This document shows, one piece after another, positions 750-20,705 of a stretch of 23,273 bases of DNA. The notes below the pieces were generated by a model, which saw only the letters and a list, made by a program, of their open reading frames with translations, did not search any database and was not told the origin of the DNA. The stretch covers positions 1 to 23,273 of IMG/VR virus record IMGVR_UViG_3300010354_000684. One strand, written 5' to 3'. Origin of the DNA: a virus. Each line of letters begins with the position of its first letter. The stretch's first letter is position 1. A program made the position numbers and the translations under genes.

Positions 750-2146
750 TATGCGTTATCATCCGTAAATGTTGTGCTATTGTTGGCACCTTCAAAATGT
801 AATAGCAACAGAGTATTTTGGTCATTGGTAAAGGCTGTGGTACTGGGTGTAAAGTTTGAGGTATATCTTGCTATATTACTGATTCTAAATTCATCCATAT
901 AACCTTTCCAACTTCCTCTGCTGTCACTGAACTTGCCTATGGTTATGCTACTTTCAAAAACTTCTGTGGTTCCACGAAGTGTAGTAGTAGTGCCAGTATC
1001 ACTTCCATCCCAATATACACGCCAGTTGCCATTATATCTTACTATGGCAATATGATACCAAGTATTGATAGCAATGGTTTTTCCTGTGTGTATAAAATCT
1101 TGATATCCTGCGGCCAAACCAAAACTTACCAGTGGATTAAGACCAGCAGTATGACTGACTAAGAAGTAAGGTTCTCCTGTAGCACTGGTTATCATCATAT
1201 AGTTTCCACCACCAAGTGTTTGATTGCCTGGTAAAATATCAAACCAGGCCCATAGTTCTATGGTTAAATCAAATACATTGCTTAATGGAAAACTGCTTAC
1301 GGTTAAGAAATCAGTATTGCCATCAAAGTAAGCACTGCTGGATCCTACTCGACTTTGGTCAGTGCTTATTTTAACATTGCCACCAGCACTTACGGTCTTG
1401 GCTATTCTATTAGGAATGGTTATGGTTTGACCAACATCATCATAGAGCATACCAGTATCACCGTTATAACTTTCCATATGTAGCAGCAATAGGGTATTAG
1501 CATCATTAGTAAAAGGTTCTGTTTGTGGAGTAAAATCTGCTGTATATCTACAGACATTACTGATCCTAACTTCATCAATGAATCCACCATAATCATAACT
1601 TAAATCATTAGTGGGTCTATTGCCCAATACAAATCCACTATCTGTGTTGGTAGTTGGAAATTGATTAGTTCTTGTATAACCAGTTGTGCTTTTTACACCA
1701 TTTAAATATAATCTAAATTCACCATTACTATCTCTACACACTGCGGCGTGATGCCACTGATTGAATCCTGCTGCGTTTTGGTGTTGTAAAGGAGTGGCTG
1801 ATGATTCACTATCAAAACTTAGAGCAAGACTATTAGCAGTACTACTTCTATAATTTAAAAATGGATTACCATTAGGGAATAAAGCATTACCACCTCTATA
1901 GTAGATCAAAGGACCTGTTTTAGTGGCGTAGAACCAACACTCCCAGGTCAGTTCACCTGTGATCCTGAGATCAGCACCTGGTACGCTAATGTTGGCACGG
2001 TCATCTACACCATCAAAAAATAAACTACTTGTTCCAAACTTTTTCTGGGCCGTGTTCAAATAACAGCCATTGAATGGATATATTTGCCAAGGTCTAACAA
2101 TATAGTTTCGACCTATACCTGTTTGTTTACTGGCTCCGAATGGCAT
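749..2146 (-). CDS. Double LamG (concanavalin-like) fibre protein
   Basis: A 465-residue protein with two LamG-like beta-sandwich domains. Domain 1 (about residues 35-235) has SLFFDGVDDRANISVPGA, LTWECWFYATKTG, QWHHAAVCRDSNGEFRLYLN and FIDEVRISNVCRYT. Domain 2 (about 255-455) has SAYFDGNTDFLTVSSFP, LTIELWAWFDI, NTWYHIAIVRYNGNWRVYW and YMDEFRISNIARYT. Each ends in the same NTLLLLHME/FEG linker as the LamG parts of the collagen fibre, and the protein stops right after TTFTDDNA, the module boundary. LamG domains bind carbohydrate or protein ligands. There is no signal peptide and no collagen tract. Start and stop are both in TAATG overlaps, so it is translationally linked to its neighbours. It is probably an accessory receptor-binding or decoration protein. 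Confidence 0.8.
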   Translation of the reverse strand: MPFGASKQTGIGRNYIVRPWQIYPFNGCYLNTAQKKFGTSSLFFDGVDDRANISVPGADLRITGELTWECWFYATKTGPLIYYRGGNALFPNGNPFLNYRSSTANSLALSFDSESSATPLQHQNAAGFNQWHHAAVCRDSNGEFRLYLNGVKSTTGYTRTNQFPTTNTDSGFVLGNRPTNDLSYDYGGFIDEVRISNVCRYTADFTPQTEPFTNDANTLLLLHMESYNGDTGMLYDDVGQTITIPNRIAKTVSAGGNVKISTDQSRVGSSSAYFDGNTDFLTVSSFPLSNVFDLTIELWAWFDILPGNQTLGGGNYMMITSATGEPYFLVSHTAGLNPLVSFGLAAGYQDFIHTGKTIAINTWYHIAIVRYNGNWRVYWDGSDTGTTTTLRGTTEVFESSITIGKFSDSRGSWKGYMDEFRISNIARYTSNFTPSTTAFTNDQNTLLLLHFEGANNSTTFTDDNA

Positions 2147-5100
2147 TATACATATCCTTTAGCCAAACTGGCATAATAAGTTGTGCCATCATAGAACACA
2201 CTGATAATATCTGTGGTATTGGTTGTGCTCAATGTTTTCATACCACCAGCAAACTTCATAGTGCTGGTTAGAGTTCTATTTGTACCACCTGTGTTTATGA
2301 TTAATGTAATAGTCTGACCTGCTACTGGATTGGTAAAAGCATTCCAGGTCAAGTTTCCATTTAGCGTTATAGTTTGTGTGCTACCATTACTAAAACTGGG
2401 TGTAATAGTTCCACTGGTTGTTCCTAAACTATAAACGGTTTCTAATAAAGTACCCGTAAGTCCTTGAATACCTTGAATACCCTGTGCTCCATCTACACCT
2501 ATGGTACCATTTGTACCAGTAGCACCTTGAATACCCTGTATACCTTGACTACCTGCTGCATCAACACCTTGAATACCTTGGATACCTTGAATTCCTTGCG
2601 CTCCATTAATGCCTATAGTTCCATTTGTACCAGTAGTACCTTGGATACCTTGATTACCAGTTGCGCCATCAATGCCTTGAATACCTTGAATACCTTGACT
2701 ACCTGCTGCATCAACACCTTGAATACCTTGGATACCTTGATTACCAGTTGCGCCATCAATGCCTTGAATACCTTGAATACCTTGACTACCTGCTGCATCA
2801 ACACCTTGAATACCTTGTATACCTTGATTACCAGTTATACCTTGTACTCCTTGTTCTCCGGTTATTCCTTGTGTTCCTTGACTACCGGTAACGCCTTGGA
2901 GTCCTTGTTCTCCGGTTATTCCTTGTGTACCCTGAACGCCTATAGCGCCCTGAATACCTTGGTCACCAGTTATACCTTGAACTCCTTGACTACCAGTTGT
3001 ACCCTGAGTACCCGTTGTACCTTGGATACCTTGCGTTCCCTGTACACCTTGAACACCTTGTACTGCTGGTTGTAGGGCCAATCTTACATCTTGATTGTCT
3101 GAAAAATTAGTTGTACCACTGCCACTATGACTTTGAATAACCACAGGTACGGTGTAGTGATTTGTATTATTGGTCAATGAGCCAGTAACACGCCAGGTCT
3201 GTTGATTGCTGGCATTTGAACTATCTTGTAGAATAAATCTACTTGTGGGTTGTAATAGGGCCAAATAATTGATAGCACTTGCACCTGCATAAGGTGTTTT
3301 ACTAATGAATAATTCAGTACTATCAATTTGAGTTGCAGCACCGCCACCACCTGTACCACCATCATCTGTAAAAGTAGTTGAATTATTAGCACCGTCCATA
3401 TGCAATAATAATAAGGTATTGGCATCATTGGTAAAGGCAGCATTTGGTACACTAAAGTTCGTGGTGTAACGTGCTGAATTACTAATCCTAAACTCATCTA
3501 TGTAACCATTAAATCCATTTACATTACTATTGATATACATTCCTAATACACATTTGTTGTTGTTATAATCATTGCTGTCACTATAAGTTGAACCAGTTTG
3601 TGTACCATCAACATATAATTTTGTACTACCACTATTCCTAACTAAAGCAATATGGTACCAAGTGTTGCTTACTAAAGGAAAACTGGTATTAATTATAGTA
3701 GTACCAAGATTAATATTAATATACAATGTACTATTAACAATTAACCACATTAATTTACTATTATTACTGTTATCAAGTAAATCTACTAAAACTTGGCTTC
3801 TACCATCTCCTGGATTATTAGGTCTAAACCTACCTTCTATTGTAAAGTTACCAGTACTAAGATTAAGTGTGCTATCAGTTGCACTTATTCCATCATCTCC
3901 ACCGCCACTAAGTTCAAATAGACCGCTACTACCTCCAAATACGCTTTGTGCTGTACTAATAGTAGGGGTAAAGATATTAGTTATTGTTAATGGTGTTCTA
4001 CTTGAGCCACCACCTCCACCACCTGTAGCATTGTATCTTATAAAGCCGCTACCTGGATCACCACTGCTGGCATCTACATCTATTCTATAATCAAATACAA
4101 GACTACTGGCTCCAATATTTCCTTGTACTCCCTGTACACCTTGCGTGCCTTGCGTACCTTGTGCTCCTTGAGTACCTGCACTACCAGTTGCACCATCTGT
4201 ACCTTGCACACCTTGTGTGCCTTGCGTACCCTGTACACCTTGTGATCCATCTGTACCTTGAATACCTTGAATACCTTGGATACCTTGGATACCTTGGATA
4301 CCTTGTGCTCCTATGGTACCTTGAACACCTTGGATTCCCTGTACAGCAGGTTGTAGAGCCAACTGAACTTGTAAATTATCAGCAAAATTAGTAGTACCGC
4401 TTCCACTGTGACTTTGAATTATCGCAGGTATAGTGTAATAATTAGTATTATTGGTCAATGAGCCAGTAACACGCCAAGTTTGTTGGTTACTGGCGTTAGC
4501 ACTATCTTGTAGAATAAATCTACTTGTGGGTTGTAATAGAGCCAAATAATTAGTAGCACTTGATCCTACAAATGCCGTTTTACTAATGAATAATTCAGTG
4601 CTATCAATTTGAGTTGCAGCACCACCACCTGTACCACCATCATCTGTAAATGTTGTGCTATTATTGGCACCATCCATATGCAACAATAACAATGTATTAG
4701 CATCATTGGTGAATGCTGTGGTACTGGGTGTAAAATTACCTGTATATCTGGCTACATTACTAATCCTAACTTCATCAATATACCCATTCCAGCCACCACC
4801 AGTATTTGGATAAAATACACCTATGTTAAATGGAAGATTTACATAATTAAAATTATCTGTATAATCTTGTGCAAAATTAACACCATTAACGTATAATCTT
4901 GTTAAATTGTTATTGCGTACTAAGGCTATATGGTACCAAGTATTTGCTGATATTGTTGTAGGTGATGCCAAGTAGTATCCACCACTGACATCATAGATTA
5001 TTTGACCATTACCTTCACAAAATAATTTAGGTGTAACTGTTTGAGTGTTATCAGTTCTTTGATCAAACATAAATTGTTGTACACCTGGAGTAAATCCTGA

Positions 5101-7008
5101 ACAATAAAACCATCCTTCTAAGGTAAAATTACCTGTGCCAAATGTCAAACTGGCATCACTAATTCTAAGACCACTATCAGAATATGCATTACTGGCCACT
5201 AATTTTAAACTGCTACCACCAAATTTGCTTTGTTCTGTACTAATTATTGGTGAATTAATATTGGTAACTGTTAATGGTGTTCTACTTGATCCACCACCTC
5301 CACCACCTGTAGCATTATATCTTATGAATCCACTACCTGGATCACCACTACTGGCATCCACATCTATTTTGTAATCAAATACAAGACTGCTGGCTCCAAG
5401 ATTTCCTTGTATGCCTTGAACTCCTTGTGTACCTTGTGTACCTTGGATACCTTGGCTTCCAATTGTACCTTGAACACCTTGTGCACCATCTACACCTTGG
5501 ATACCTTGACTACCATTTGATCCAACAAATCCAGCAGTACCTTGTGCACCATCTAAACCTTGGATACCTTGAACACCCTGTGCTCCTATAGTACCCTGTG
5601 CTCCAGTTGCACCTTGTACACCCTGTGCACCACTGACTAAACCTAAGAACACTGTGTGATTATTGCTAAATCCTGTAGTGCCAGTACCACCACTGCTGGT
5701 TAGTGTAACTGGATAAGTCCAATAGGCTGTGGCTGTACCTTGATTACTAACAGTTGGTGTACCTGTAACTGTCCAATTTTGATAATTGGCACTGGCATTT
5801 CTGTCCTGTACAATAATTTGTTCACCAACACTGATTGTACTCAAATAGATATCTACATCTGTGTTTAAGTCATCTAAATGACTGACCAATAATTGTGTGC
5901 TACTGGTCTGTGTGGCATTATTATAAATTATGCTTGAATCACCTGGATAACCACTGGTGGCTGCTGTGTTTATTTTGTAAAAGAACAAGTTGCTGCTATA
6001 ACCAGTGGTACCCTGAATGCCTTGAATACCTGTAGTGCCTTGGATACCTTGCGTGCCTTGGATACCTTGCGTGCCTTGGATACCTTGTTGGCCTAAGGTG
6101 CCTTGTAGTCCCTGCTCACCTTGAACACCTTGTGTGCCTTGTGCGCCCTTAATACCTTGAATACCTTGTTCACCTTGAATACCTTGTTGACCTATGGTTC
6201 CTTGTAGGCCTTGTTCACCTTGAATACCTTGTGTTCCTTGATATCCCTGTGTGCCTTGAACACCTTGAAGACCTTGTGTGCCTTGAACACCTTGTTCACC
6301 TTGAATACCTTGTGTACCCTGACGACCTTGTACACCTTGTTGTCCCTGTACGCCTTGTGTACCTTGTACTCCTTGATATCCTTGTAGACCCCAATCTCCT
6401 TGCACACCTTGTAAGCCTTGCGTACCCTGAATACCTTGTTGTCCCTGTACGCCTTGAATACCTTGCTCACCTTGAATACCTTGTGTGCCTTGTGCTCCTA
6501 TGGTACCTTGTAGTCCTTGTTGGCCCACTGCACCTTGTAGTCCAATTGTTCCTTGAAGACCCTGTTCACCTTGGATACCCTGAGTGCCTTGGATACCTTG
6601 TTCACCTTGAATACCCTGAGTGCCTTGGATACCTTGTGTACCTGTATCACCTGGAACACCTGCAGGTCCAGGTCCACCTAATCCACCAGTTGTACCCTGA
6701 ATACCTTGCACACCTTGTGTACCCTGACGACCTTGGATACCTTGTGCACCAGTTGTACCCTGAATACCCTGAATACCCTGAATACCTTGTGCTCCAGTTG
6801 CACCTTGGATACCTTGAATACCCTGAAAACTACCAGGTGTGGCCCAAGCATAATCATAATTAGTACTTGAGTTCTTGGCTAATATTTGACCAGTTACACC
6901 ACCATCTGGTACTGAAGCCTGTTGTAGGCCTGTGAAATTGGCATCTCCCTCAGCCCAACTTAATGGTGAGCCTTTGGCTGCTCTTGTAGTTACTGAAGGT
7001 TTTGCCAT
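2146..7008 (-). CDS. Giant collagen-like tail fibre with embedded LamG domains
   Basis: A 1620-residue fibre. In order: an N-terminal anchor (residues 1-58) with AAKGSPLSWAEGDANFTGL, a motif typical of tail fibre bases; collagen-like Gly-x-Y tract 1 (about 59-336); a beta domain (337-456); tract 2 (456-538); the same beta domain carrying a LamG insertion (538-886); tract 3 (886-966); a second LamG-bearing copy (966-1314); tract 4 (1314-1520); and a C-terminal tip (1520-1620) with SGTITPSFSNGSTQTITL, probably the trimer knob. The tracts are rich in GIQ, GTQ, GVQ and GEQ, with Gln in the Y place and almost no Pro. LamG domains bind glycans or proteins (established). The start has AGGAG 6 nt before ATG. 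It is expected to trimerise as a long rod with bulky globules. Its stop shares a base with the next start (TAATG). Confidence 0.88.
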   Translation of the reverse strand: MAKPSVTTRAAKGSPLSWAEGDANFTGLQQASVPDGGVTGQILAKNSSTNYDYAWATPGSFQGIQGIQGATGAQGIQGIQGIQGTTGAQGIQGRQGTQGVQGIQGTTGGLGGPGPAGVPGDTGTQGIQGTQGIQGEQGIQGTQGIQGEQGLQGTIGLQGAVGQQGLQGTIGAQGTQGIQGEQGIQGVQGQQGIQGTQGLQGVQGDWGLQGYQGVQGTQGVQGQQGVQGRQGTQGIQGEQGVQGTQGLQGVQGTQGYQGTQGIQGEQGLQGTIGQQGIQGEQGIQGIKGAQGTQGVQGEQGLQGTLGQQGIQGTQGIQGTQGIQGTTGIQGIQGTTGYSSNLFFYKINTAATSGYPGDSSIIYNNATQTSSTQLLVSHLDDLNTDVDIYLSTISVGEQIIVQDRNASANYQNWTVTGTPTVSNQGTATAYWTYPVTLTSSGGTGTTGFSNNHTVFLGLVSGAQGVQGATGAQGTIGAQGVQGIQGLDGAQGTAGFVGSNGSQGIQGVDGAQGVQGTIGSQGIQGTQGTQGVQGIQGNLGASSLVFDYKIDVDASSGDPGSGFIRYNATGGGGGGSSRTPLTVTNINSPIISTEQSKFGGSSLKLVASNAYSDSGLRISDASLTFGTGNFTLEGWFYCSGFTPGVQQFMFDQRTDNTQTVTPKLFCEGNGQIIYDVSGGYYLASPTTISANTWYHIALVRNNNLTRLYVNGVNFAQDYTDNFNYVNLPFNIGVFYPNTGGGWNGYIDEVRISNVARYTGNFTPSTTAFTNDANTLLLLHMDGANNSTTFTDDGGTGGGAATQIDSTELFISKTAFVGSSATNYLALLQPTSRFILQDSANASNQQTWRVTGSLTNNTNYYTIPAIIQSHSGSGTTNFADNLQVQLALQPAVQGIQGVQGTIGAQGIQGIQGIQGIQGIQGTDGSQGVQGTQGTQGVQGTDGATGSAGTQGAQGTQGTQGVQGVQGNIGASSLVFDYRIDVDASSGDPGSGFIRYNATGGGGGGSSRTPLTITNIFTPTISTAQSVFGGSSGLFELSGGGDDGISATDSTLNLSTGNFTIEGRFRPNNPGDGRSQVLVDLLDNSNNSKLMWLIVNSTLYININLGTTIINTSFPLVSNTWYHIALVRNSGSTKLYVDGTQTGSTYSDSNDYNNNKCVLGMYINSNVNGFNGYIDEFRISNSARYTTNFSVPNAAFTNDANTLLLLHMDGANNSTTFTDDGGTGGGGAATQIDSTELFISKTPYAGASAINYLALLQPTSRFILQDSSNASNQQTWRVTGSLTNNTNHYTVPVVIQSHSGSGTTNFSDNQDVRLALQPAVQGVQGVQGTQGIQGTTGTQGTTGSQGVQGITGDQGIQGAIGVQGTQGITGEQGLQGVTGSQGTQGITGEQGVQGITGNQGIQGIQGVDAAGSQGIQGIQGIDGATGNQGIQGIQGVDAAGSQGIQGIQGIDGATGNQGIQGTTGTNGTIGINGAQGIQGIQGIQGVDAAGSQGIQGIQGATGTNGTIGVDGAQGIQGIQGLTGTLLETVYSLGTTSGTITPSFSNGSTQTITLNGNLTWNAFTNPVAGQTITLIINTGGTNRTLTSTMKFAGGMKTLSTTNTTDIISVFYDGTTYYASLAKGYV
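2450..3065 (-). repeat. Collagen-like tract 4 with 87-bp tandem repeats
   Basis: Gly-x-Y codons fill this segment as repeated 9-bp units. From 2653 to about 2831 an 87-bp unit (29 codons: GNQ GIQ GIQ GVDAA GSQ GIQ GIQ GID GAT) is tandemly duplicated. The GVDAA pentapeptide breaks the Gly-every-third rule and recurs three times in the tract. Confidence 0.8.
3338..4026 (-). other. LamG insertion B within the collagen fibre
   Basis: A second LamG-like module (FTIEGRFRPNN, NTWYHIALVRNSG, KLYVDGTQTG, YIDEFRISNSARYT) in the same place of another copy of the beta domain, about 1.28 kb from insertion A. The joints again read GGGGGGSS on entry and GGTGGGGAA on exit. The sugar-facing middle differs strongly from insertion A while the edges are nearly identical. 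Confidence 0.75.
4258..4302 (-). repeat. Perfect 9-bp minisatellite in collagen tract 3
   Basis: Five consecutive GIQ codon sets, of which three are identical 9-mers (TTGGATACC on the plus strand) and two differ by one silent base. This is the most uniform stretch and a likely site of copy number change. Confidence 0.8.
4618..5310 (-). other. LamG insertion A within the collagen fibre
   Basis: A concanavalin/LamG-like module (motifs FTLEGWFYCSG, NTWYHIALVRNNN, RLYVNGV, YIDEVRISNVARYT, NTLLLLHMDGANNSTTF) placed between NAT and ATQIDSTELF of a beta domain that is uninterrupted in the copy at 5640-6000. Both joints are poly-Gly and encoded by similar DNA. Confidence 0.75.
6001..6835 (-). repeat. 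Collagen-like tract 1 (longest)
   Basis: About 92 Gly-x-Y triplets, dominated by GIQ, GTQ, GVQ, GEQ and GLQ, with one PGPAGVPGD-type stretch holding the few prolines. 9-bp units give stretches of near-perfect microsatellite. All six frames are thin in stops here, which creates long false reading frames. Confidence 0.85.
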
Positions 7009-8000: not shown

Positions 8001-10034
8001 TTATGGACAAGTACCCCAAATTGGTTTTTCTGCTGTGGTCCAACTTGTTAAAGTACCTGTATCAAATCCACTTGGTTTAGTAGAAATTAAACTTACACAC
8101 CAATTACTAATATTTTGATCAAAACTACTTGCTCCATTAAACATATTGACCATATTAGTAACAAGAGCAGTATTCCAACTATCACCACTTCTTGCAAGTG
8201 GTTGATTAAATGCTGTTGCACCACTAAACATACTACTCATAGAAGTAACTTTGGCAGTATTCCAACTACTGATATTTTGATTAAAATTAGTGCATTGTAA
8301 AAAAGTTTGACTCATTGAAGTTACATTTGAAGTATTCCAATTGCTTAATGGTTGGTTAAAGTTCGTACATTGGTAAAATGTCCTAAATAAACTTGTAACA
8401 TTACTAATATTCCAACTGTTAATATTTTGATTAAATGAGATGCAGCCATAGAAACAATCAGCAAGGTTTATCAGTGATTGTGTATTCCAACTACCTATTG
8501 GTTGATTAAATTGAGTACAACCGGTTAATGCAAAATTAGTTAAATTTTGTGTATTCCAACTAACAATATTACTATCATTAAATATGCTTGCAAATTCTAA
8601 AGCAAAAGAAGTTAAGGTATTTGGAATTTTATTAGGTACGCTGGTTAAATATAAATTTGGAAAATTATTTGATCCAGTCAAGCGAAAAGTTCCTAATTTT
8701 TTACCGAAACTATTAATGCTGGTTATTCTTTTGGCTGTTGATGGTTGACTTGAATTTTGCGCTATAATAATACTACTTAGATAATTGTTAGTAGTATCTT
8801 GATCTACTACTCTAATAGTATAAGTACCTGCTTTTGGATAAGTGTAACTTATGTTCGCTGATTGTCCAGGACTTGGGCTTACAAAAACTCCACTTGATTC
8901 ATCTCCCCAATAAACGTATACACCGCCTACAGTTTGTAATGAAACATTAGCAAAAAGAAAATTATCTACAGGCACTGTATGAGTAAATGAAGTATCTAAC
9001 CCATCAACAAAAACCTGTTTAAAATTTGCTGTTGTTGCATAGGTATTATTATTTGATCTTTGTGCTCTAAAACCTATTGGAGATATTGTTGCAGCACTTG
9101 CATAGGAATTAGAATTAGATATTTGTCGTCTATATCCAGTCGGTGATATACCTGTTGTTGTTGCATAGGTATTAGAATTAGATATTTGTCGTCTAAAACC
9201 TGTTGGACTTATTGTTGTTGAGATTGAATATGTATTGTTTAAAGGAATTTTAATGGCACGTATTTGGTAATTTGATTGGAATGAACTTTGAATAGTTGCT
9301 GTAGATTTAAAAACACCATTGGTTCTACCTTCAAACCCAAAAATTGAATTAAGAACAGATTGATACAATCTAATTCTTATTGTACTATCGCTTATTGTAA
9401 ATTCACCAAGTACTAATCCAGATGTCTTATCAAAATCAAATGGTACAGCAATTAATCCATTTTCTAATGCTAATAATGATTGTCCAAATGTTATTCTTTG
9501 TACCCCTGAACCTACAGTATCTAAAGTACCAAGGGTATTCAAATTAGATTCAAACAAATGTGGTACGTGAAATGTATACAATACTTTGGCTTCACTATAA
9601 CATTCCATATCCTCATTGTAGACATAACCTTCTGTGATTTCATATTGAATATCGTGACCTTCAATATAAGGTATACCCATATTTGGAATACGCCATATTT
9701 GTGCAAATGCTTCTTTAAGTTCTCTTTGAGCAGTAGTAGTTAGAGCACTACTGGTTCTAACATAATTTCTTGTGTCTAATACTAAATTTGTATAACCATT
9801 TAGATTGGCTTCTGCTTGTCTTATGGCTCTGAATTTACTGGCATCTGGACTTATAGATACTGTGGCATTAAGATTAAGTGCATCTAAGACAATTGCACTA
9901 TAATTTACATAGCCTAATGCACGTAATTTGGCTGTACTAATAATATCAAAGCCAAGAGTTTTTACAGTACTTCTTTTGGCTGTAGCCGTGGCTGTACTTG
10001 ATGCCGTTATATAACTTTCACCATACTTGACCAT
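8001..10034 (-). CDS. Fibre protein with PKD domain and DUF285 repeats
   Basis: A 677-residue probable tail fibre or adhesin following J. The N-terminal third (about residues 1-230) looks like a virion-anchoring part with ASKFRAIRQAEANLNGYTNL and IWRIPNMGIPYIEGHDIQYE. Next come three 21-residue repeats (about 270-332, unit SNTYATTTGISPTGYRRQIS), a PKD-like domain (about 350-425, with VYWGDESSG and YTYPKAGTYTIRV), and six or so DUF285/BspA-like repeats (about 475-645) of the form FNQ-x-I/L-x-x-WNT-x-x-V-T-x-M-x-x-x-F. It ends in WCVS...KPIWGTCP, the usual DUF285 cap. DUF285 proteins are surface proteins of diverse microbes (established). No signal peptide is present, in keeping with a virion part. 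The role in host binding is inferred. Confidence 0.8.
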   Translation of the reverse strand: MVKYGESYITASSTATATAKRSTVKTLGFDIISTAKLRALGYVNYSAIVLDALNLNATVSISPDASKFRAIRQAEANLNGYTNLVLDTRNYVRTSSALTTTAQRELKEAFAQIWRIPNMGIPYIEGHDIQYEITEGYVYNEDMECYSEAKVLYTFHVPHLFESNLNTLGTLDTVGSGVQRITFGQSLLALENGLIAVPFDFDKTSGLVLGEFTISDSTIRIRLYQSVLNSIFGFEGRTNGVFKSTATIQSSFQSNYQIRAIKIPLNNTYSISTTISPTGFRRQISNSNTYATTTGISPTGYRRQISNSNSYASAATISPIGFRAQRSNNNTYATTANFKQVFVDGLDTSFTHTVPVDNFLFANVSLQTVGGVYVYWGDESSGVFVSPSPGQSANISYTYPKAGTYTIRVVDQDTTNNYLSSIIIAQNSSQPSTAKRITSINSFGKKLGTFRLTGSNNFPNLYLTSVPNKIPNTLTSFALEFASIFNDSNIVSWNTQNLTNFALTGCTQFNQPIGSWNTQSLINLADCFYGCISFNQNINSWNISNVTSLFRTFYQCTNFNQPLSNWNTSNVTSMSQTFLQCTNFNQNISSWNTAKVTSMSSMFSGATAFNQPLARSGDSWNTALVTNMVNMFNGASSFDQNISNWCVSLISTKPSGFDTGTLTSWTTAEKPIWGTCP
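8100..8570 (-). repeat. DUF285 (BspA-like) repeat array
   Basis: About six consecutive units of roughly 24-28 codons with conserved Phe-Asn-Gln, Trp-Asn-Thr and Met or Phe at fixed spacing. Five of the Trp-Asn-Thr/Ile sites read as TTCCAAC on the plus strand. One unit has a 4-residue insert (ARSGD) before Ser-Trp. Confidence 0.8.
9037..9226 (-). repeat. Three tandem 63-bp repeats in the DUF285 fibre gene
   Basis: Three 63-bp units encode 21-residue repeats with Ile-Ser-Pro-x-Gly-Phe/Tyr-Arg-x-Gln and Ser-Asn-x-x-Tyr. DNA identity is high between the two central units, pointing to fairly recent in-frame duplication. Confidence 0.75.
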
Positions 10035-14554: not shown

Positions 14555-14998
14555 TCATTGACTCCAATTCTCGTCTACAGGCACAAATCCAAATCTGCTG
14601 TAATTAACCTGTGTACCTGCCCTGCGTGTCATAGTAAATGCCTGTATTTGACCTGACTTTTTCATACCCTGACCAATGCGTACATATTCTTTTAGCAACA
14701 AATAACCTAATCTACTTTTACGTGCCTCTGGTTCCATCCAAAATACAAGTTCATTAAGTGTATAAGTATTTGGTTCCCATACCATAGGTGTCATTAGACT
14801 TAGTAATACTCCAACAGGTACAAGATCTTTACAGGCCACAAGTCCAACTCCTCCACCAGCACGAATATGATTTAGAATCATTTCAATATGTTGGGCATTA
14901 TTGAATTTTTCTACAATCTTAACTTGGCTACAATCTCTAAAATGACATAGCATTTCATAGATTTTGCTGTCATCAAATCTTGTTATGGTTCTAATCAT
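14555..14998 (-). CDS. GNAT-family N-acetyltransferase
   Basis: A 147-residue protein with the GCN5-related N-acetyltransferase fold, which moves an acetyl group from acetyl-CoA to an amine; the substrate is unknown. What is seen: an N-terminal helix-loop-helix (DDSKIYEMLCHFRDCS), a strand GVGLVACKDLVPVGVLLSLM, the central TLNELVFWMEPEARKSRLGY with a degenerate acetyl-CoA loop (Arg-Lys-Ser-Arg-Leu-Gly instead of Arg-x-x-Gly-x-Gly), then a long helix LLLKEYVRIGQGMKKSG, and a C-terminal NYSRFGFVPVDENWSQ typical of the last GNAT strand. It is embedded in the tail-tip operon between hub and J, where lambda has genes K and I. Translation is coupled by TAATG. It could modify a virion protein, lipopolysaccharide-linked target or host protein. 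Confidence 0.8.
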   Translation of the reverse strand: MIRTITRFDDSKIYEMLCHFRDCSQVKIVEKFNNAQHIEMILNHIRAGGGVGLVACKDLVPVGVLLSLMTPMVWEPNTYTLNELVFWMEPEARKSRLGYLLLKEYVRIGQGMKKSGQIQAFTMTRRAGTQVNYSRFGFVPVDENWSQ

Positions 14999-15726: not shown

Positions 15727-16373
15727 ACTACATTCTCCAAGATTTGAAAATCACCACTAAATTGTATAAGTTTACCAGGCAAATAATTATAACTGGGTAA
15801 ACTGGTCACAAGCACTTTGAATTCACAGGTTGGTCCTGCTCTAAATCCACCACCAGTAAGTGTGCCAATAATATCTCTATGCACAGGTATGCTGATACTA
15901 CTTGTGCTACCTCTTGTAACATTTTCTGTTACTACATATGGATAACGATGCGTATTCTGTAAAGGTTGTATGAGATCACCAGCAGCAAATATTATGTCTG
16001 TGCTCTGCTTGCTTAATACTGTACCACTAATTGTGGCTGTGATAGTTCTTGATGTGGCACCAGTTACTATGACATTGTTTTGTAGTTCACTGTTGGTCAA
16101 TGCACCTTGATATGCAAACATCCAACTTTGTCCACTCACACTAAAACTTATGGTTGATTCTTCATAACGGTCTTTTGCCAAGATACCTTCAAGTGCTGTT
16201 CTTGCTATGTCCCAAGGATAGAAGTCTGCAGGTGTTACACGAAATTGCCAAGGCTTAACAGTGTCTCTGCGTCCTGTATATACTCTACCACTGCGTGTAA
16301 CAGTTTGGGCTACAACTTCTGTTCTTGTAATTTCTATATTACTGGCTGTATTGATTATACCTTGTAGGCTCAT
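15723..16373 (-). CDS. Distal tail / minor tail protein
   Basis: A 216-residue protein right after the tape measure, the place of lambda gpM or of Dit-type distal tail proteins that start the tip. What is seen: a beta-rich protein with SNIEITRTEVVAQTVTRSGR, a Trp-containing RDTVKPWQFRVTPADFYPWD, and a C-terminal KLIQFSGDFQILENV, the sort of closing strand seen in tube-like minor tail proteins. It also has a segment on rejoining of values (GDLIQPLQNTHRYPYVV). Its start overlaps the tape measure stop as ATGA with AAGGAG before it, and its stop overlaps the next gene as ATGA. A ring-forming hub-adaptor role is inferred from gene order; no catalytic motif is present. Confidence 0.62.
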   Translation of the reverse strand: MSLQGIINTASNIEITRTEVVAQTVTRSGRVYTGRRDTVKPWQFRVTPADFYPWDIARTALEGILAKDRYEESTISFSVSGQSWMFAYQGALTNSELQNNVIVTGATSRTITATISGTVLSKQSTDIIFAAGDLIQPLQNTHRYPYVVTENVTRGSTSSISIPVHRDIIGTLTGGGFRAGPTCEFKVLVTSLPSYNYLPGKLIQFSGDFQILENVV

Positions 16374-19099
16374 CTACGACTCCTTGCGGGCAAACTACGT
16401 CTTGCCTGTTCTGTGACATTATATATAAACTCTGGATCACGTGACACTAACTGTTTAAAACTGGCTGCATCCACTGCCTGTATGCTATAACTTACATTAG
16501 TAACTGCTGCTGCCTGCATACCAAGTTGATTGTTATTCATAATACTACCATTAGTGCTGGGTACAAATAATTCTGGACCTCTTTCACCAACAACATATGG
16601 TTTATTTGAACTTACTGGTCCGCCACTTGCTCTACCACTTAGAAAACTGAATATACTACTTAAAATATTTCCACCTTGACCATCATTGCTACCAAAAATA
16701 CCTTTAAGTAAGTTTTGTGCCTGTATACGAACAAATTGTGCAATTATATCATTGGCCAAATCTTTAAAACTTAACTTGCCAGTTCTAACAAATCTAATAA
16801 TAGCATCCTCAAAACCTGTTGTAAATTTTTTAAAATAATCTTGTGCTTGTTGTGCTGTATTACCACTGGCCTCTAAGAAATCAGTAAATGCTTGATTCCA
16901 ACCTGTGTTAAATTCTCTACTTTGTACATACAAGCCCATTTGTGCATCTTTGAGTCGATTAGCACCAACTACGGCTGCGTCATAGTATTGACTTACCACA
17001 TCTGCTGGCACTTCACTTCTAAGAATGTTTTGTCTTTGTGCATAGGCCTGTAGTTCACTTTCGGCTGCTTCTCTTGCTGCTATATCTATGTTTTGATATA
17101 TTTTACCAATTGTGCTAAGTCCTAAGGCGCTTCTTTGATCTTCAATGTTGCGTAATTGTTTTTGTAAATCTAATTCAGTCTTTTGTTCAAACATTCTAAA
17201 ACTTTGACGTTCTTTGGCAGCATTAAGATTTTGTTGTGCCTGTGTTAGTGCATTTAATCCTTTCTGTGCTTCTTCATAATATTTTTTCTCTTCTTCAGCA
17301 GTCATTGTTGCCAATTTTAAACTGCGTCTACGAGTATTTTCTTGTTCAATTTGGCTGCGTGCTGTTTCTTGAGCACTTTTATTAAGATCTAATTGTTGTT
17401 GATTTAATAATGGCAGTGTTACTTTGGCTGCTTCATCTTGCAAATCACGCAACTTCTTTTCACTATCTGTTCTTGCTTTAATACTAAATTCTAAGAAAGT
17501 ATTATTTCTACGTTCTTGTTCTGCACGATCATAATTTAAAGTTGTTAAATCTTCTACAACTTTTCTTTGATTAGCATACTCAGTAGTCAACTCCTTCATC
17601 TTTTGTTGTATGGCAGGAACCGCTGCTTGTTCATCTCTGTTTTTACTGGCCTGTTTAATTTTAAGTTCTTCAACCAGCCTATTCATTTCTTTATAATAGG
17701 TGCTATCTACATCTGCCAGTGCCTGACGTATAGTTCTTTCTCTATCACTGGCACCTATTAATTCACCCTCCAACATAAGCCTACGCTGTAATTCTACATT
17801 GGCATCCTTATATTGTTGCAGTTGCTTGTCCAGTTCTTTTGAATATTTTGGATCTAAGAACCCAGGAGCACCAGCACCTTTTTCACTTTTGAATCCATCC
17901 ATTAGACTATCAAAACTTTTTTTGTAGTCTTCAAGTTCTTTTCGGGCTTCGCTGGTTGGATCCTTCATTTCCTCCATCTTGTCGCCAATCTTGCCAATAC
18001 CTAACCAAGTTGCAATAGCAGCAGCACCGCCTGTTAGTATTGCAATAGTTGGTGCTACAGTTTTAGCCAATGCAGCAAAACCACTGGTTACCTTACTGAG
18101 ACCTGACATTAATGGTCCAGCAATGGTTGTGGCAACATTGCCTATACGTATTCCAAATGCGACTATACTGGCACCAATTGCAGTTATTTGAGCACCAAAT
18201 ACCCCTATAGCAGTAACTACCCCTGATACTATCCCTGCTACTAATTTAAATGCAGTAAAGGCCAATATAATTTTACCTATGGTAACGATTATTCCGCCCC
18301 AACGATCTATAAAGGCATCTAAACTTTTTACAGTGACATAAATGGCAAAGCCCATTGATTCTATAGTACGACTCAATGTTTCTGCTGTTTTAGTATTGGT
18401 TTCAAATTCATTAAATGCCAATGCTACAAGATTTTTAAATGTTGTAAATGCATCGCTAATGGTTGGAATTGTTTTGCCAAATCCTGCATCAATTTGATCA
18501 CTGGCGGCAAGTAATGCATCTGCAACCTGTTTGGCACTGATCTGTCCTTCACTACCTAACTTTTTAAGTGCTCCAACTGGAACTCCAAGACTATCTGCCA
18601 ATATTTTAGCAACTGGACCTAAACCTTCTAAGACGCTGCGTAATTCATCACCTTGGAATACACCGCTTTGAAACGCCTGACCCAACTGATACAATGGTCC
18701 CGCTGCTTCCTTACTGCTCTGACCACTCATCTTAAGTGCTTTGGCCACTGTTTCACTAATACGAGCAGCATCACGTTGACTAATACCTAAATCATTGGCT
18801 GCACGAGCAGTTCTATAATATAAATCACCTACTGCTGCTATGTCACTGCGAGCACGAATGGCTATACTGGCTAATCCATTTAATTGACGAGCAGCATCTT
18901 CTTGACTATCATTTAAGGTTATGAGTTGATTACGTAAATTTGTTATACTATCTGTAAAACTAACCACAGCGCCAGTAGTAGCAACTGCAAATGCTGCCTT
19001 GAATGTACTTCCAATACCTGCAATTTGGTTTTCTAAACTTCTTAAATTGCTTATTGCTCTACTGGTATCAACATTAACACTAAGATCTAATGCAGCCAT
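16370..19099 (-). CDS. Tail tape measure protein
   Basis: A 909-residue protein that sets tail length and is later ejected, probably helping DNA cross the envelope. What is seen: an N-terminal tape-measure domain of the TP901/lambda-H kind (about residues 60-235, with LYYRTARAANDLGIS, FQGDELRSVLEGLGPVAKIL, GQISAKQVADAL), a long hydrophobic Gly/Ala/Ile region (about 266-371), charged coiled-coil segments (about 375-700), and a C-terminal lambda-H-like part with FEDAIIRFVRTGKLSFKDLA (about 761-780) and ASGGPVSSNKPYVVGERGPE (about 822-841), a hallmark of these proteins. At about 0.15 nm per residue the tail would be near 135 nm, a lambda-like length; that is a rule-of-thumb estimate. AGGAAAA lies before the ATG. 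Lambda gpH is cleaved near its C-terminus; whether this one is cannot be seen. Confidence 0.93.
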   Translation of the reverse strand: MAALDLSVNVDTSRAISNLRSLENQIAGIGSTFKAAFAVATTGAVVSFTDSITNLRNQLITLNDSQEDAARQLNGLASIAIRARSDIAAVGDLYYRTARAANDLGISQRDAARISETVAKALKMSGQSSKEAAGPLYQLGQAFQSGVFQGDELRSVLEGLGPVAKILADSLGVPVGALKKLGSEGQISAKQVADALLAASDQIDAGFGKTIPTISDAFTTFKNLVALAFNEFETNTKTAETLSRTIESMGFAIYVTVKSLDAFIDRWGGIIVTIGKIILAFTAFKLVAGIVSGVVTAIGVFGAQITAIGASIVAFGIRIGNVATTIAGPLMSGLSKVTSGFAALAKTVAPTIAILTGGAAAIATWLGIGKIGDKMEEMKDPTSEARKELEDYKKSFDSLMDGFKSEKGAGAPGFLDPKYSKELDKQLQQYKDANVELQRRLMLEGELIGASDRERTIRQALADVDSTYYKEMNRLVEELKIKQASKNRDEQAAVPAIQQKMKELTTEYANQRKVVEDLTTLNYDRAEQERRNNTFLEFSIKARTDSEKKLRDLQDEAAKVTLPLLNQQQLDLNKSAQETARSQIEQENTRRRSLKLATMTAEEEKKYYEEAQKGLNALTQAQQNLNAAKERQSFRMFEQKTELDLQKQLRNIEDQRSALGLSTIGKIYQNIDIAAREAAESELQAYAQRQNILRSEVPADVVSQYYDAAVVGANRLKDAQMGLYVQSREFNTGWNQAFTDFLEASGNTAQQAQDYFKKFTTGFEDAIIRFVRTGKLSFKDLANDIIAQFVRIQAQNLLKGIFGSNDGQGGNILSSIFSFLSGRASGGPVSSNKPYVVGERGPELFVPSTNGSIMNNNQLGMQAAAVTNVSYSIQAVDAASFKQLVSRDPEFIYNVTEQARRSLPARSRR

Positions 19100-19100
19100 A

Positions 19101-19397
19101 TTATTTTCCTAAAATACTTTTAAGTTTTTGTCTTACAAACTTTTCTGTTGGAACTATCATTCCTTGTGGTGCTTGACGACTGTAGCCTTTATCTAATTTA
19201 CCAGCATATGGATAATTGGCTTCTATAACATTGCTACCTGATAACCTTGTATTCATTCTTGCGTTACCAGTTCTTATAGGTGTTTGTGCATAAAAATAAT
19301 TATAAGCATCTTTTGGTAATTTATTCAGTTGAGTTTGAACACGTTTACTGGCTGCTGTAAATGTATTTCTATCAACTTTTACGTCCATTTTGATCAT
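19101..19397 (-). CDS. HK97-gp10-like tail completion protein
   Basis: A 98-residue protein of the HK97 gp10 / lambda gpZ type, which helps finish the tail so that it can join the head. What is seen: an N-terminal helix (RNTFTAASKRVQTQLNKLP), the family-typical TPIRTGNAR motif (Pro-x-Arg-Thr-Gly-Asn followed by a basic residue), then NYPYAGKLDKGYSRQAP, matching the conserved Tyr-Ala...Gly pattern, and a closing basic helix ending SILGK. It is shorter than most family members. The start overlaps the GT reading frame by 26 nt, with GGAG 10 nt before ATG. Its position between the chaperones and the tape measure is unusual, since this family is usually placed before the tail terminator and tube genes. 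Confidence 0.72.
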   Translation of the reverse strand: MIKMDVKVDRNTFTAASKRVQTQLNKLPKDAYNYFYAQTPIRTGNARMNTRLSGSNVIEANYPYAGKLDKGYSRQAPQGMIVPTEKFVRQKLKSILGK

Positions 19398-19952
19398 TTT
19401 TAACTCGCTCCATCATTGCTAACATTTCTTCTTGAGTTGGCATACGTTTTGGTTGTCCTACAAGTCCTTGACTACGCCTATTTTCTTCCTCAATTTGAAA
19501 CTTATTATATTTTGCACTTACATCCATTACAAACATATCAAAAGTACTGGCATTACACAAAACATCACTGGGTAGTTGACTATACCTATGAGCGAGATTG
19601 TCCAAGGTTAGGATCATCTGTATATAAGGTTGATCCCAATCTATGGTCTCGCTGGTTACTTTCCCAACAATTCTACAATCTTAGTCACACACTTGAGTAA
19701 TACTGTACCAGGAAGCATACTTTCCTCACTGATTATTTCATTACCTTTTTCATCTAAAATTAATTTTCGTATAACTTGAAACATTTTACCTTGATCTTGT
19801 TGGTCCATACTAACCAAACTCATAAAAACATCTAATGGTTGACGATCATATGTATGAAAAGTCAAAGTTTCTCCAAATTGCTTAACAATATCTTCATCAG
19901 CAATTTCTACTTCAATTAATTTGGGTTTTCCTGCCAGTTGATTTAATTTCAT
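19372..19952 (-). CDS. Tail assembly chaperone GT, -1 frameshift fusion
   Basis: The predicted long form made when ribosomes slip back one base on the GGGAAAG site at 19659-19665. The first segment is 19952-19659 (98 residues), the second 19659-19372 (95 residues), giving 193 residues. After GK the -1 frame reads VTSETIDWDQPYIQMILTLD and continues without a stop through a helical, charged T domain (NKFQIEEENRRSQG, QEEMLAMMERVKND). An ATG within this segment (19617) has no ribosome site before it, so independent translation is unlikely. In lambda the T part is the piece that recruits tube protein to the tape measure (established). The T end overlaps the next gene by 26 nt. Confidence 0.85.
19656..19952 (-). 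CDS. Tail assembly chaperone G (short form)
   Basis: A 98-residue protein equivalent in place and size class to lambda gpG. Such chaperones bind the tape measure and tube protein during tail assembly and are not kept in the virion. What is seen: a mixed alpha/beta protein with IEVEIADEDIVKQFGETLTF, a helix DVFMSLVSMDQQDQGKMFQV, and a C-terminal helix LLKCVTKIVELLGK. It lies two places before the tape measure. The reading frame ends in the slippery sequence G GGA AAG directly followed by TAA, and the -1 frame continues openly into a second coding segment. AGGAG precedes the ATG. Similarity to lambda G is by position and frameshift, not clear residue identity. Confidence 0.85.
   Translation of the reverse strand: MKLNQLAGKPKLIEVEIADEDIVKQFGETLTFHTYDRQPLDVFMSLVSMDQQDQGKMFQVIRKLILDEKGNEIISEESMLPGTVLLKCVTKIVELLGK
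19659..19665 (-). promoter_or_regulatory. Programmed -1 frameshift site GGGAAAG
   Basis: On the coding strand the zero-frame codons are TTG GGA AAG TAA. The heptamer G GGA AAG fits the X XXY YYZ rule for tandem slippage and is identical to the lambda G/GT slippery site. A stop immediately follows, and the -1 frame is open for 95 codons. No strong downstream hairpin was noticed by eye. Confidence 0.9.
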
Positions 19953-20131
19953 CCTTCAATCTCCTTTCTTTGGATCATTCTATTAACAAGAACTATGTTA
20001 AAACTTAATCTACTATTGATTTTTTCTAAATCATTGCGAGCACATTGTAATTCTGCCTTGCTCTTGGCCAATTCTGCTAACATACTTTTCAGAATATCTT
20101 TATCTGATTTTGAATCTATAACGTCATCCAT
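19949..20131 (-). CDS. Small coiled-coil protein before tail chaperone G
   Basis: A 60-residue charged protein of unknown role. The middle, from about residue 12 to 45, is a heptad-like helix (DILKSMLAELAKSKAELQCA, then NDLEKINSRLSF), followed by a basic end (NRMIQRKEIEG). It is the first gene after the terminator and its stop overlaps the ATG of chaperone G as ATGA, so the two are likely co-translated and may act together in tail assembly. I do not recognise a family. The ATG at 20131 is preferred to TTG at 20134 because of ribosome site spacing. Short coiled-coil proteins at this place could be chaperone partners or regulators; neither can be shown here. Confidence 0.7.
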   Translation of the reverse strand: MDDVIDSKSDKDILKSMLAELAKSKAELQCARNDLEKINSRLSFNIVLVNRMIQRKEIEG

Positions 20132-20137
20132 CAATCT

Positions 20138-20207: not shown

Positions 20208-20705
20208 TTATTCTGTTGCGCTGGTAGTGTATTCACCAGTTACAGTAATAGTAATTGGACTGACCCATACTGGAGCATCTGCACTTACTGTTGGAGCAAG
20301 ACCAGTAATATAGCCTTGACCTTTTAGGTAAGTATCAGTTGCACCGCCCTCATATGCTTTTAAACTAAAAGTAACAAGAGTTTTATTACGACTAAGTCCT
20401 AAAATTCCTTGTGCTGCCACGGTGTCAGTTTGCACTGATGCCAATGTGGTGCCAAAGAATGTAGTAGGATCAACTACTAAGTTCATACTAATACTATTAG
20501 TGCTGGTTGTAGCAACTTGTTTTTTAGCAGTAGAATCTAATTGACTCCAAGTAAAAACATCGTTAGCAGCATTAACAGTAATATCTTGTAGTGCAGGCAC
20601 AGTTAATGGACTGCCTCCAAGAGTTAGTGTGCCAAGAGCAATACCACAGTCAAGTTTTAGTACAATTTGACTTGAAGTGCCTGGCGCTGGATTAATGTAA
20701 GCCAT
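20208..20705 (-). CDS. Major tail (tube) protein
   Basis: A 165-residue protein that probably stacks as hexamer rings to form the tail tube. What is seen: an Ala/Thr/Val-rich beta protein with an early strand (QIVLKLDCGIALGTLTLGG), a segment on tube-type strands (ATTSTNSISMNLVVDP), and a C-terminal SPITITVTGEYTTSATE, the kind of closing strand seen in tube subunits. It follows the terminator gene and precedes the chaperone genes, as gene V does in lambda. AAGGAAT lies before the ATG. A strong intrinsic terminator begins 17 nt after the stop, so high expression of the head and tube genes can be separated from the tail-assembly genes. It has no appended Ig domain. Confidence 0.8.
   Translation of the reverse strand: MAYINPAPGTSSQIVLKLDCGIALGTLTLGGSPLTVPALQDITVNAANDVFTWSQLDSTAKKQVATTSTNSISMNLVVDPTTFFGTTLASVQTDTVAAQGILGLSRNKTLVTFSLKAYEGGATDTYLKGQGYITGLAPTVSADAPVWVSPITITVTGEYTTSATE

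Follow-up and report, generated by a model that had tools for sequence, protein, structure and literature searches.

The locus analysed here raises the question of whether two adjoining reading frames in a phage tail module, G and T, encode two separate small proteins, or whether G and a longer G-T fusion are made from one start by programmed -1 frameshifting, as in phage lambda. The window, by which we mean the whole stretch of DNA that was analysed, is 23,273 bases long (37.9% G+C), and its tail gene module lies on the minus strand. G runs from 19952 to 19656 behind a ribosome-binding site that we rate as strong (AAAGGAG, 19967 to 19961), and its 3' end reads TTG GGA AAG TAA, giving a protein that ends in LLGK. 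Within this end lies the heptamer GGGAAAG (19665 to 19659), which occurs a single time in the window when both strands are counted. A preliminary description of this DNA had proposed that a -1 slip on the heptamer opens a 95-codon extension of G, and the sequence bears out both the coordinates and the junction GK-VTSETID: after the slip, T reads GTA ACC AGC GAG ACC ATA GAT (VTSETID...) and continues to a stop that ends at 19372. The features at the junction are as follows.

19961..19967, minus strand: ribosome-binding site of G, AAAGGAG (from the sequence, with Shine-Dalgarno-like matches in relatives)
19656..19952, minus strand: gene G, 98 amino acids, the zero-frame product and N-terminal part of a putative tail assembly chaperone (open reading frame, 81 relatives, predicted fold)
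19659..19665, minus strand: slippery heptamer G GGA AAG (sequence, presence of a slippery heptamer in 81 of 81 relatives, codon choice)
19656..19658, minus strand: zero-frame stop TAA adjoining the heptamer (adjacent in 78 of 81 relatives)
19372..19659, minus strand: T frame of 95 codons and a stop, entered by a putative -1 slip and giving the GT fusion with G (open frame, selection on codons 2-12, predicted four-helix fold)

If the heptamer is used, it should be kept among relatives. Scanning IMG/VR with G alone gave 34 loci, and a profile scan gave 329 confirmed loci, 80 of which were retrieved. With the window included and duplicates removed, 81 distinct loci could be read across the slip site; all are uncultured phages. 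One locus (L116) originated from a beta-proteobacterial metagenome bin. Cultured phages (INPHARED), searched by tblastn with E values up to 1, gave no match to either G or T. All 81 loci have, at the 3' end of G, an in-frame heptamer of the form X XXY YYZ, which is GGGAAAG in 65, GGGAAAA in 14 and GGGGGGC in 2, so that the variants in the family are all still slippery forms and a search for relatives lacking such a heptamer returned none. Because 80 of the 81 loci fall into 55 clusters at 85% DNA identity, this conservation is not one lineage counted repeatedly. Codon choice is also constrained at the site: the codon preceding the Gly, a Leu codon, is TTG or CTG in 81/81, whereas 25% of the other Leu codons of these genes end in G, and the Gly of the heptamer is GGA in 79/81, against a background of 12%. 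In the two GGGGGGC loci (L029 and L031) the slip site has been replaced naturally, and the stop remains directly 3' of it. Several of the GGGAAAA relatives (e.g. L060, L085 and L092) have AAGGTGACC, resembling an internal Shine-Dalgarno sequence, roughly 12-18 nt upstream of the heptamer; it is absent from the window, and its association with the heptamer type may reflect shared ancestry. For the window, an upstream anti-Shine-Dalgarno stimulator of the dnaX type was considered and rejected (-1.3 kcal/mol, versus a mean of -2.3 kcal/mol in random G windows).

The alternative to a fusion is a separate small T gene that is translated from its only early ATG (19617), either through a ribosome site of its own or by reinitiation after the G stop. 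Most relatives do have an ATG at T codons 12-15, and in the window a gene caller would annotate an 81-amino-acid ORF from this position. Yet the window's ATG has no ribosome site, as the preliminary description had noted. Whereas G is preceded by a Shine-Dalgarno-like match of 4-7 nt, mostly AAGGA, in each of the 79 relatives that could be read far enough upstream, the matches before the first T ATG resemble those at random positions in T, and a search among the relatives for a separate T gene with its own ribosome site thus found SD-like matches at background level only. In three relatives (L030, L088 and L095) the first 40 T codons include no ATG, and those of L088 lack GTG and TTG as well. 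The codons upstream of the usual ATG also behave as coding sequence. Among the 55 cluster representatives, codon periodicity, taken as the most variable codon position, changes frame at the heptamer; T codons 2-12 are free of stops in the -1 frame in 55/55, and their ratio of nonsynonymous to synonymous change, compared with expectation, is 0.31 when they are read in the -1 frame, as against 1.02 for the zero frame and 1.16 for the remaining frame, placing protein-level selection on this segment in the -1 frame only. Moreover, this ATG is about 40 nt downstream of the stop and is predicted to be partly paired, and an independent T would leave the conservation of the heptamer unexplained. We consider such a gene very improbable.

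A change of frame during transcription, by polymerase slippage, is more improbable still. The run of six Gs at the site in L029 and L031 would suit it, but the usual GGGAAAG offers three-base runs only. Runs of three bases are too short for polymerase slippage. The conserved phasing of X XXY YYZ to the G frame suits tandem tRNA slippage instead. The conserved heptamer, together with T starts whose Shine-Dalgarno matches do not rise above background, supports the earlier proposal that G and T are joined by the programmed -1 frameshift of a tail assembly chaperone, and we hold with high confidence, from sequence comparison, that GT is produced in this way.

The genes around G and T are arranged in the window and its relatives in the order major tail protein candidate, (small ORF), G, T, completion-like gene, tape measure gene:

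20208..20705, minus strand: major tail protein candidate, named from its position two genes upstream of G; upstream in 66/66 relatives with enough sequence
19949..20134, minus strand: small ORF, 61 amino acids, between the major tail candidate and G; 28 of the 66 relatives whose upstream sequence is long enough have a similar ORF
19101..19397, minus strand: tail completion/Neck1-like protein, 98 amino acids (phrog_169, E 4.2e-8); follows T in 75 of the 76 relatives whose downstream sequence is long enough
16370..19099, minus strand: tape measure protein, 909 amino acids (Pfam TMP_3, E 9.4e-51; Tape_meas_lam_C, E 2e-17; phrog_339, E 1.3e-66)

The major tail protein candidate matched no PHROG or Pfam family. 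The completion-like protein matches the C-terminal part of tail completion/Neck1 families. Its gene, which overlaps the end of T, is found between T and the tape measure gene, here and in 75/76 relatives, and not upstream of the gene for the major tail protein. Elsewhere on the minus strand of the window are a 1,620-amino-acid collagen-like protein (2146-7008; G-X-Y, QGIQGIQG) with repeated inserted domains, probably a tail fibre; a 677-amino-acid tail-region protein (8001-10034) with BspA-like repeats in its C-terminal half (FNQ...SWNTSNVTSM); and, within the tail module, a 147-amino-acid acetyltransferase-like ORF (14555-14998) with no Pfam match.

Scanned against PHROG and Pfam, 48 members each of G and T gave scattered weak matches only. 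Among the 48 G relatives, the Pfam matches were Phage_TAC_13 (PF16459) in three and Gp41_Mu (PF23746) in one, with best E values of 0.004 and 0.049, respectively, the window's own G having no match; a G profile compared with PDB sequences found nothing relevant. G was also modelled with AlphaFold (pLDDT 85). The model's best two PDB matches are chains A and B of the HK97 tail assembly chaperone (2ob9_A/B), a protein of similar size (104-107 residues, against 98 for G), although the scores are weak (E 0.12 and 0.22, TM 0.4-0.5), the identity is 7-10%, and no other PDB match comes close. In BFVD, a collection of predicted viral structures, the second match to the G fold is named 'Tail assembly chaperone' (E 3.5e-9). 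T is modelled as an all-helical, four-helix fold (pLDDT 82, pTM 0.47) that found no match in the PDB. We therefore infer the chaperone function of G and T from gene position, two-frame architecture and fold, and not from sequence descent from lambda. A GT chaperone made by frameshifting is of an already known kind; its family here is new to PHROGs, Pfam and cultured phages.

The comparison with lambda (NC_001416, 9711-10549) is close in design. Lambda G/GT uses the same heptamer, GGGAAAG, with the same -1 direction and phase, and in the lambda tail operon G and then T likewise lie upstream of the tape measure gene. There they directly precede it, whereas here the extra completion-like gene separates T from the tape measure gene; G has 140 amino acids in lambda and 98 here. 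The preliminary description had gone further, presenting the heptamer as lambda-identical and kept. The identity of the seven bases stands. Descent does not follow from it: profile comparison (hhalign) gave no homology between G and lambda G (probability 0.2%), library searches gave no match to a lambda G family in PHROG or Pfam, and within the family the heptamer itself varies (GGGAAAA, GGGGGGC). Independent origin of the shared heptamer is as possible as descent. What the earlier reading had overlooked altogether is the stop codon directly after the heptamer and the conserved RNA structure downstream of it.

The lambda heptamer and stop are five sense codons apart, and in published sets of tail chaperones the distance from slip site to stop averages 26 and 36 nt (PMC10885494). 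Here the zero-frame stop adjoins the heptamer in 78/81 loci and lies five codons later only in L011, L034 and L113. The third base of the first T-frame codon is nearly always A, though GTA makes up 32% of Val codons. Placement of a stop directly after the HIV-1 slip site gave less slippage on bacterial ribosomes, and extra release factor abolished slippage (PMC4373837), so the adjacent stop could brake GT production. By analogy with that result, we give even chances to the proposal that the stop acts as a brake on slippage through release factor. A stop directly 3' of a slippery heptamer (PMC4373837), followed by RNA structure, is also found in eukaryotic viruses, the differences here being a bacterial host and tail chaperone products.

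We next consider the RNA that follows the heptamer, where the following elements are predicted.

19647..19653, minus strand: stem 1, 5' arm AGCGAGA, at a distance of 5 nt from the heptamer; the conserved helix with the highest score in clade 1
19591..19597, minus strand: stem 1, 3' arm TCTCGCT; conserved helix, with choice of the Leu codon CTC
19635..19640, minus strand: stem 2, 5' arm ATTGGG, within the stem 1 loop; second-best conserved helix of clade 1, putative pseudoknot
19567..19572, minus strand: stem 2, 3' arm CCCAGT; conserved helix, with choice of the Pro codon CCC
19608..19639, minus strand: inner hairpin within stem 1; minimum-energy single-strand fold of the window, z -3.2

In the window, the 75 nt that follow the heptamer have a fold z score of -4.7 (-3.0 to -4.7 when stretches of other lengths are folded). 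Clade 1, to which the window belongs, comprises 25 loci including the window; its mean fold z is -2.98 for the 75-nt stretch right after the heptamer and lies between -1.14 and +0.31 elsewhere. An unsupervised scan of all six-pair helices possible in clade 1 (about 3,500) placed stem 1 (positions 6-11 with 61-66, 0-based after the heptamer) first and stem 2 (18-23 with 86-91) second. With helices scored instead by how far they exceeded synonymous shuffles that preserve the protein, the top seven places of 3,486 all went to registers of these two stems. Since stem 2 begins inside the stem 1 loop and ends beyond it, the two together would form a pseudoknot. In clade 1 the spacer between the heptamer and stem 1 is 5-6 nt long, which falls within the 5-9 nt that are usual between heptamer and structure in a bipartite signal (PMC7618472). 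The inner hairpin shares bases with the 5' arm of stem 2 and competes with that stem in the window's own single-strand fold; bases of the internal ATG (19617-19615) are paired in it as well.

No single consensus fold was found for the whole family, nor did alifold find one for clade 1 alone, probably owing to the 49-nt loop of stem 1; pairs were therefore counted explicitly. In clade 1, 86.5% of cells are paired, versus 37-46% when the arms are slid by 1-3 columns, and there are 8 double-change cells versus 2.5 in shuffles (0/500). Covariation of stems 1 and 2 is thus modest, and both arms are under amino-acid constraint. The sister clade (23 loci) has different helices, which are hairpins, with 88.6% of cells paired versus 22-51% when slid and 23 double-change cells versus 10.2 in shuffles (0/500); its clearest covarying pairs are UA 9/AU 8/GC 3 and GC 14/AU 6. 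The shuffles leave relatedness in, which makes these pair counts supportive and short of proof. A second strongly covarying hairpin in the sister clade (e.g. L083, L050 and L046), TCACTTGG...CCAAGTGA, follows the first at about 59-93 nt from the heptamer, too distant for a usual stimulator.

These patterns could arise in at least two ways. The downstream structure could be a frameshift stimulator, or the frameshift could be real while the pairing is a mere by-product of amino-acid and codon constraint, the heptamer alone being enough, as described for lambda. The paired bases overlap conserved residues (GE, DW, NLA, LPS), five clade 1 members (L014, L018, L030, L041 and L057) have a poor stem 1, and tail frameshifts have been described as seeming to need no stimulators (PMC5009743), all of which would fit constraint alone and the last of which sets the conserved structure here apart from lambda-type sites. 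Against it, the fold-energy signal of clade 1 is confined to the stretch just past the heptamer, and the stem registers exceed shuffles in which the protein is preserved. Synonymous codons at the partner positions are also unusual, with Leu CTC in 20/25 versus 9%, Asn AAC in 17/22 versus 32% and Pro CCC in 17/25 versus 27%, and the sister clade shows clear double changes (UA/AU/GC and GC/AU) in helices of its own. On this evidence, which is comparative, a role for the downstream RNA as stimulator appears likely, and pairing through constraint alone rather unlikely. Folded as a control, lambda itself (L036) has a z of -2.3 to -2.8 over the 75-95 nt after its own heptamer; a single sequence proves nothing, and lambda's downstream RNA may deserve a second look.

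We infer slippage itself, its stimulation by RNA and its braking by the stop codon, and suggest that they would be combined as follows. Most ribosomes would read G and terminate at the adjacent TAA, releasing the 98-residue G protein. In a minority, the Gly- and Lys-tRNAs on GGA AAG would re-pair one base back, on GGG AAA, and the slipped ribosomes would read GTA in place of TAA, producing a G-T fusion of 193 residues. A pause at the RNA structure 5-6 nt past the heptamer, which in clade 1 could be the long-looped pseudoknot of stems 1 and 2, probably promotes slippage, and competition from release factor at the adjacent stop probably caps it. By analogy with lambda, G would coat the tape measure protein, and the T domain would recruit the major tail protein.

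The frameshift itself is textbook. What is added is the combination of an adjacent stop with structured RNA, in a family without detectable sequence kinship to lambda; with a conserved, clade-specific downstream structure and the adjacent stop, the locus is a variant of the known G/GT kind. Stimulators at tail-chaperone sites may have been reported earlier, our literature search having covered open papers only. Rather than relying on the heptamer alone, this uncultured family may set its G:GT ratio from two sides, an RNA pseudoknot (hairpins in the sister clade) pushing ribosomes back and the adjacent stop letting release factor terminate, a proposal that we put forward tentatively and at slightly less than even odds. 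The ratio in lambda, about 30:1, is crucial for building the tail (PMC5009743). The 329 IMG/VR loci offer natural variants for studying how phages tune a ratio on which lambda tail assembly depends, and with the family at hand, gene callers and family libraries, which now overlook its proteins, would be able to annotate the tail chaperones of many uncultured phages.
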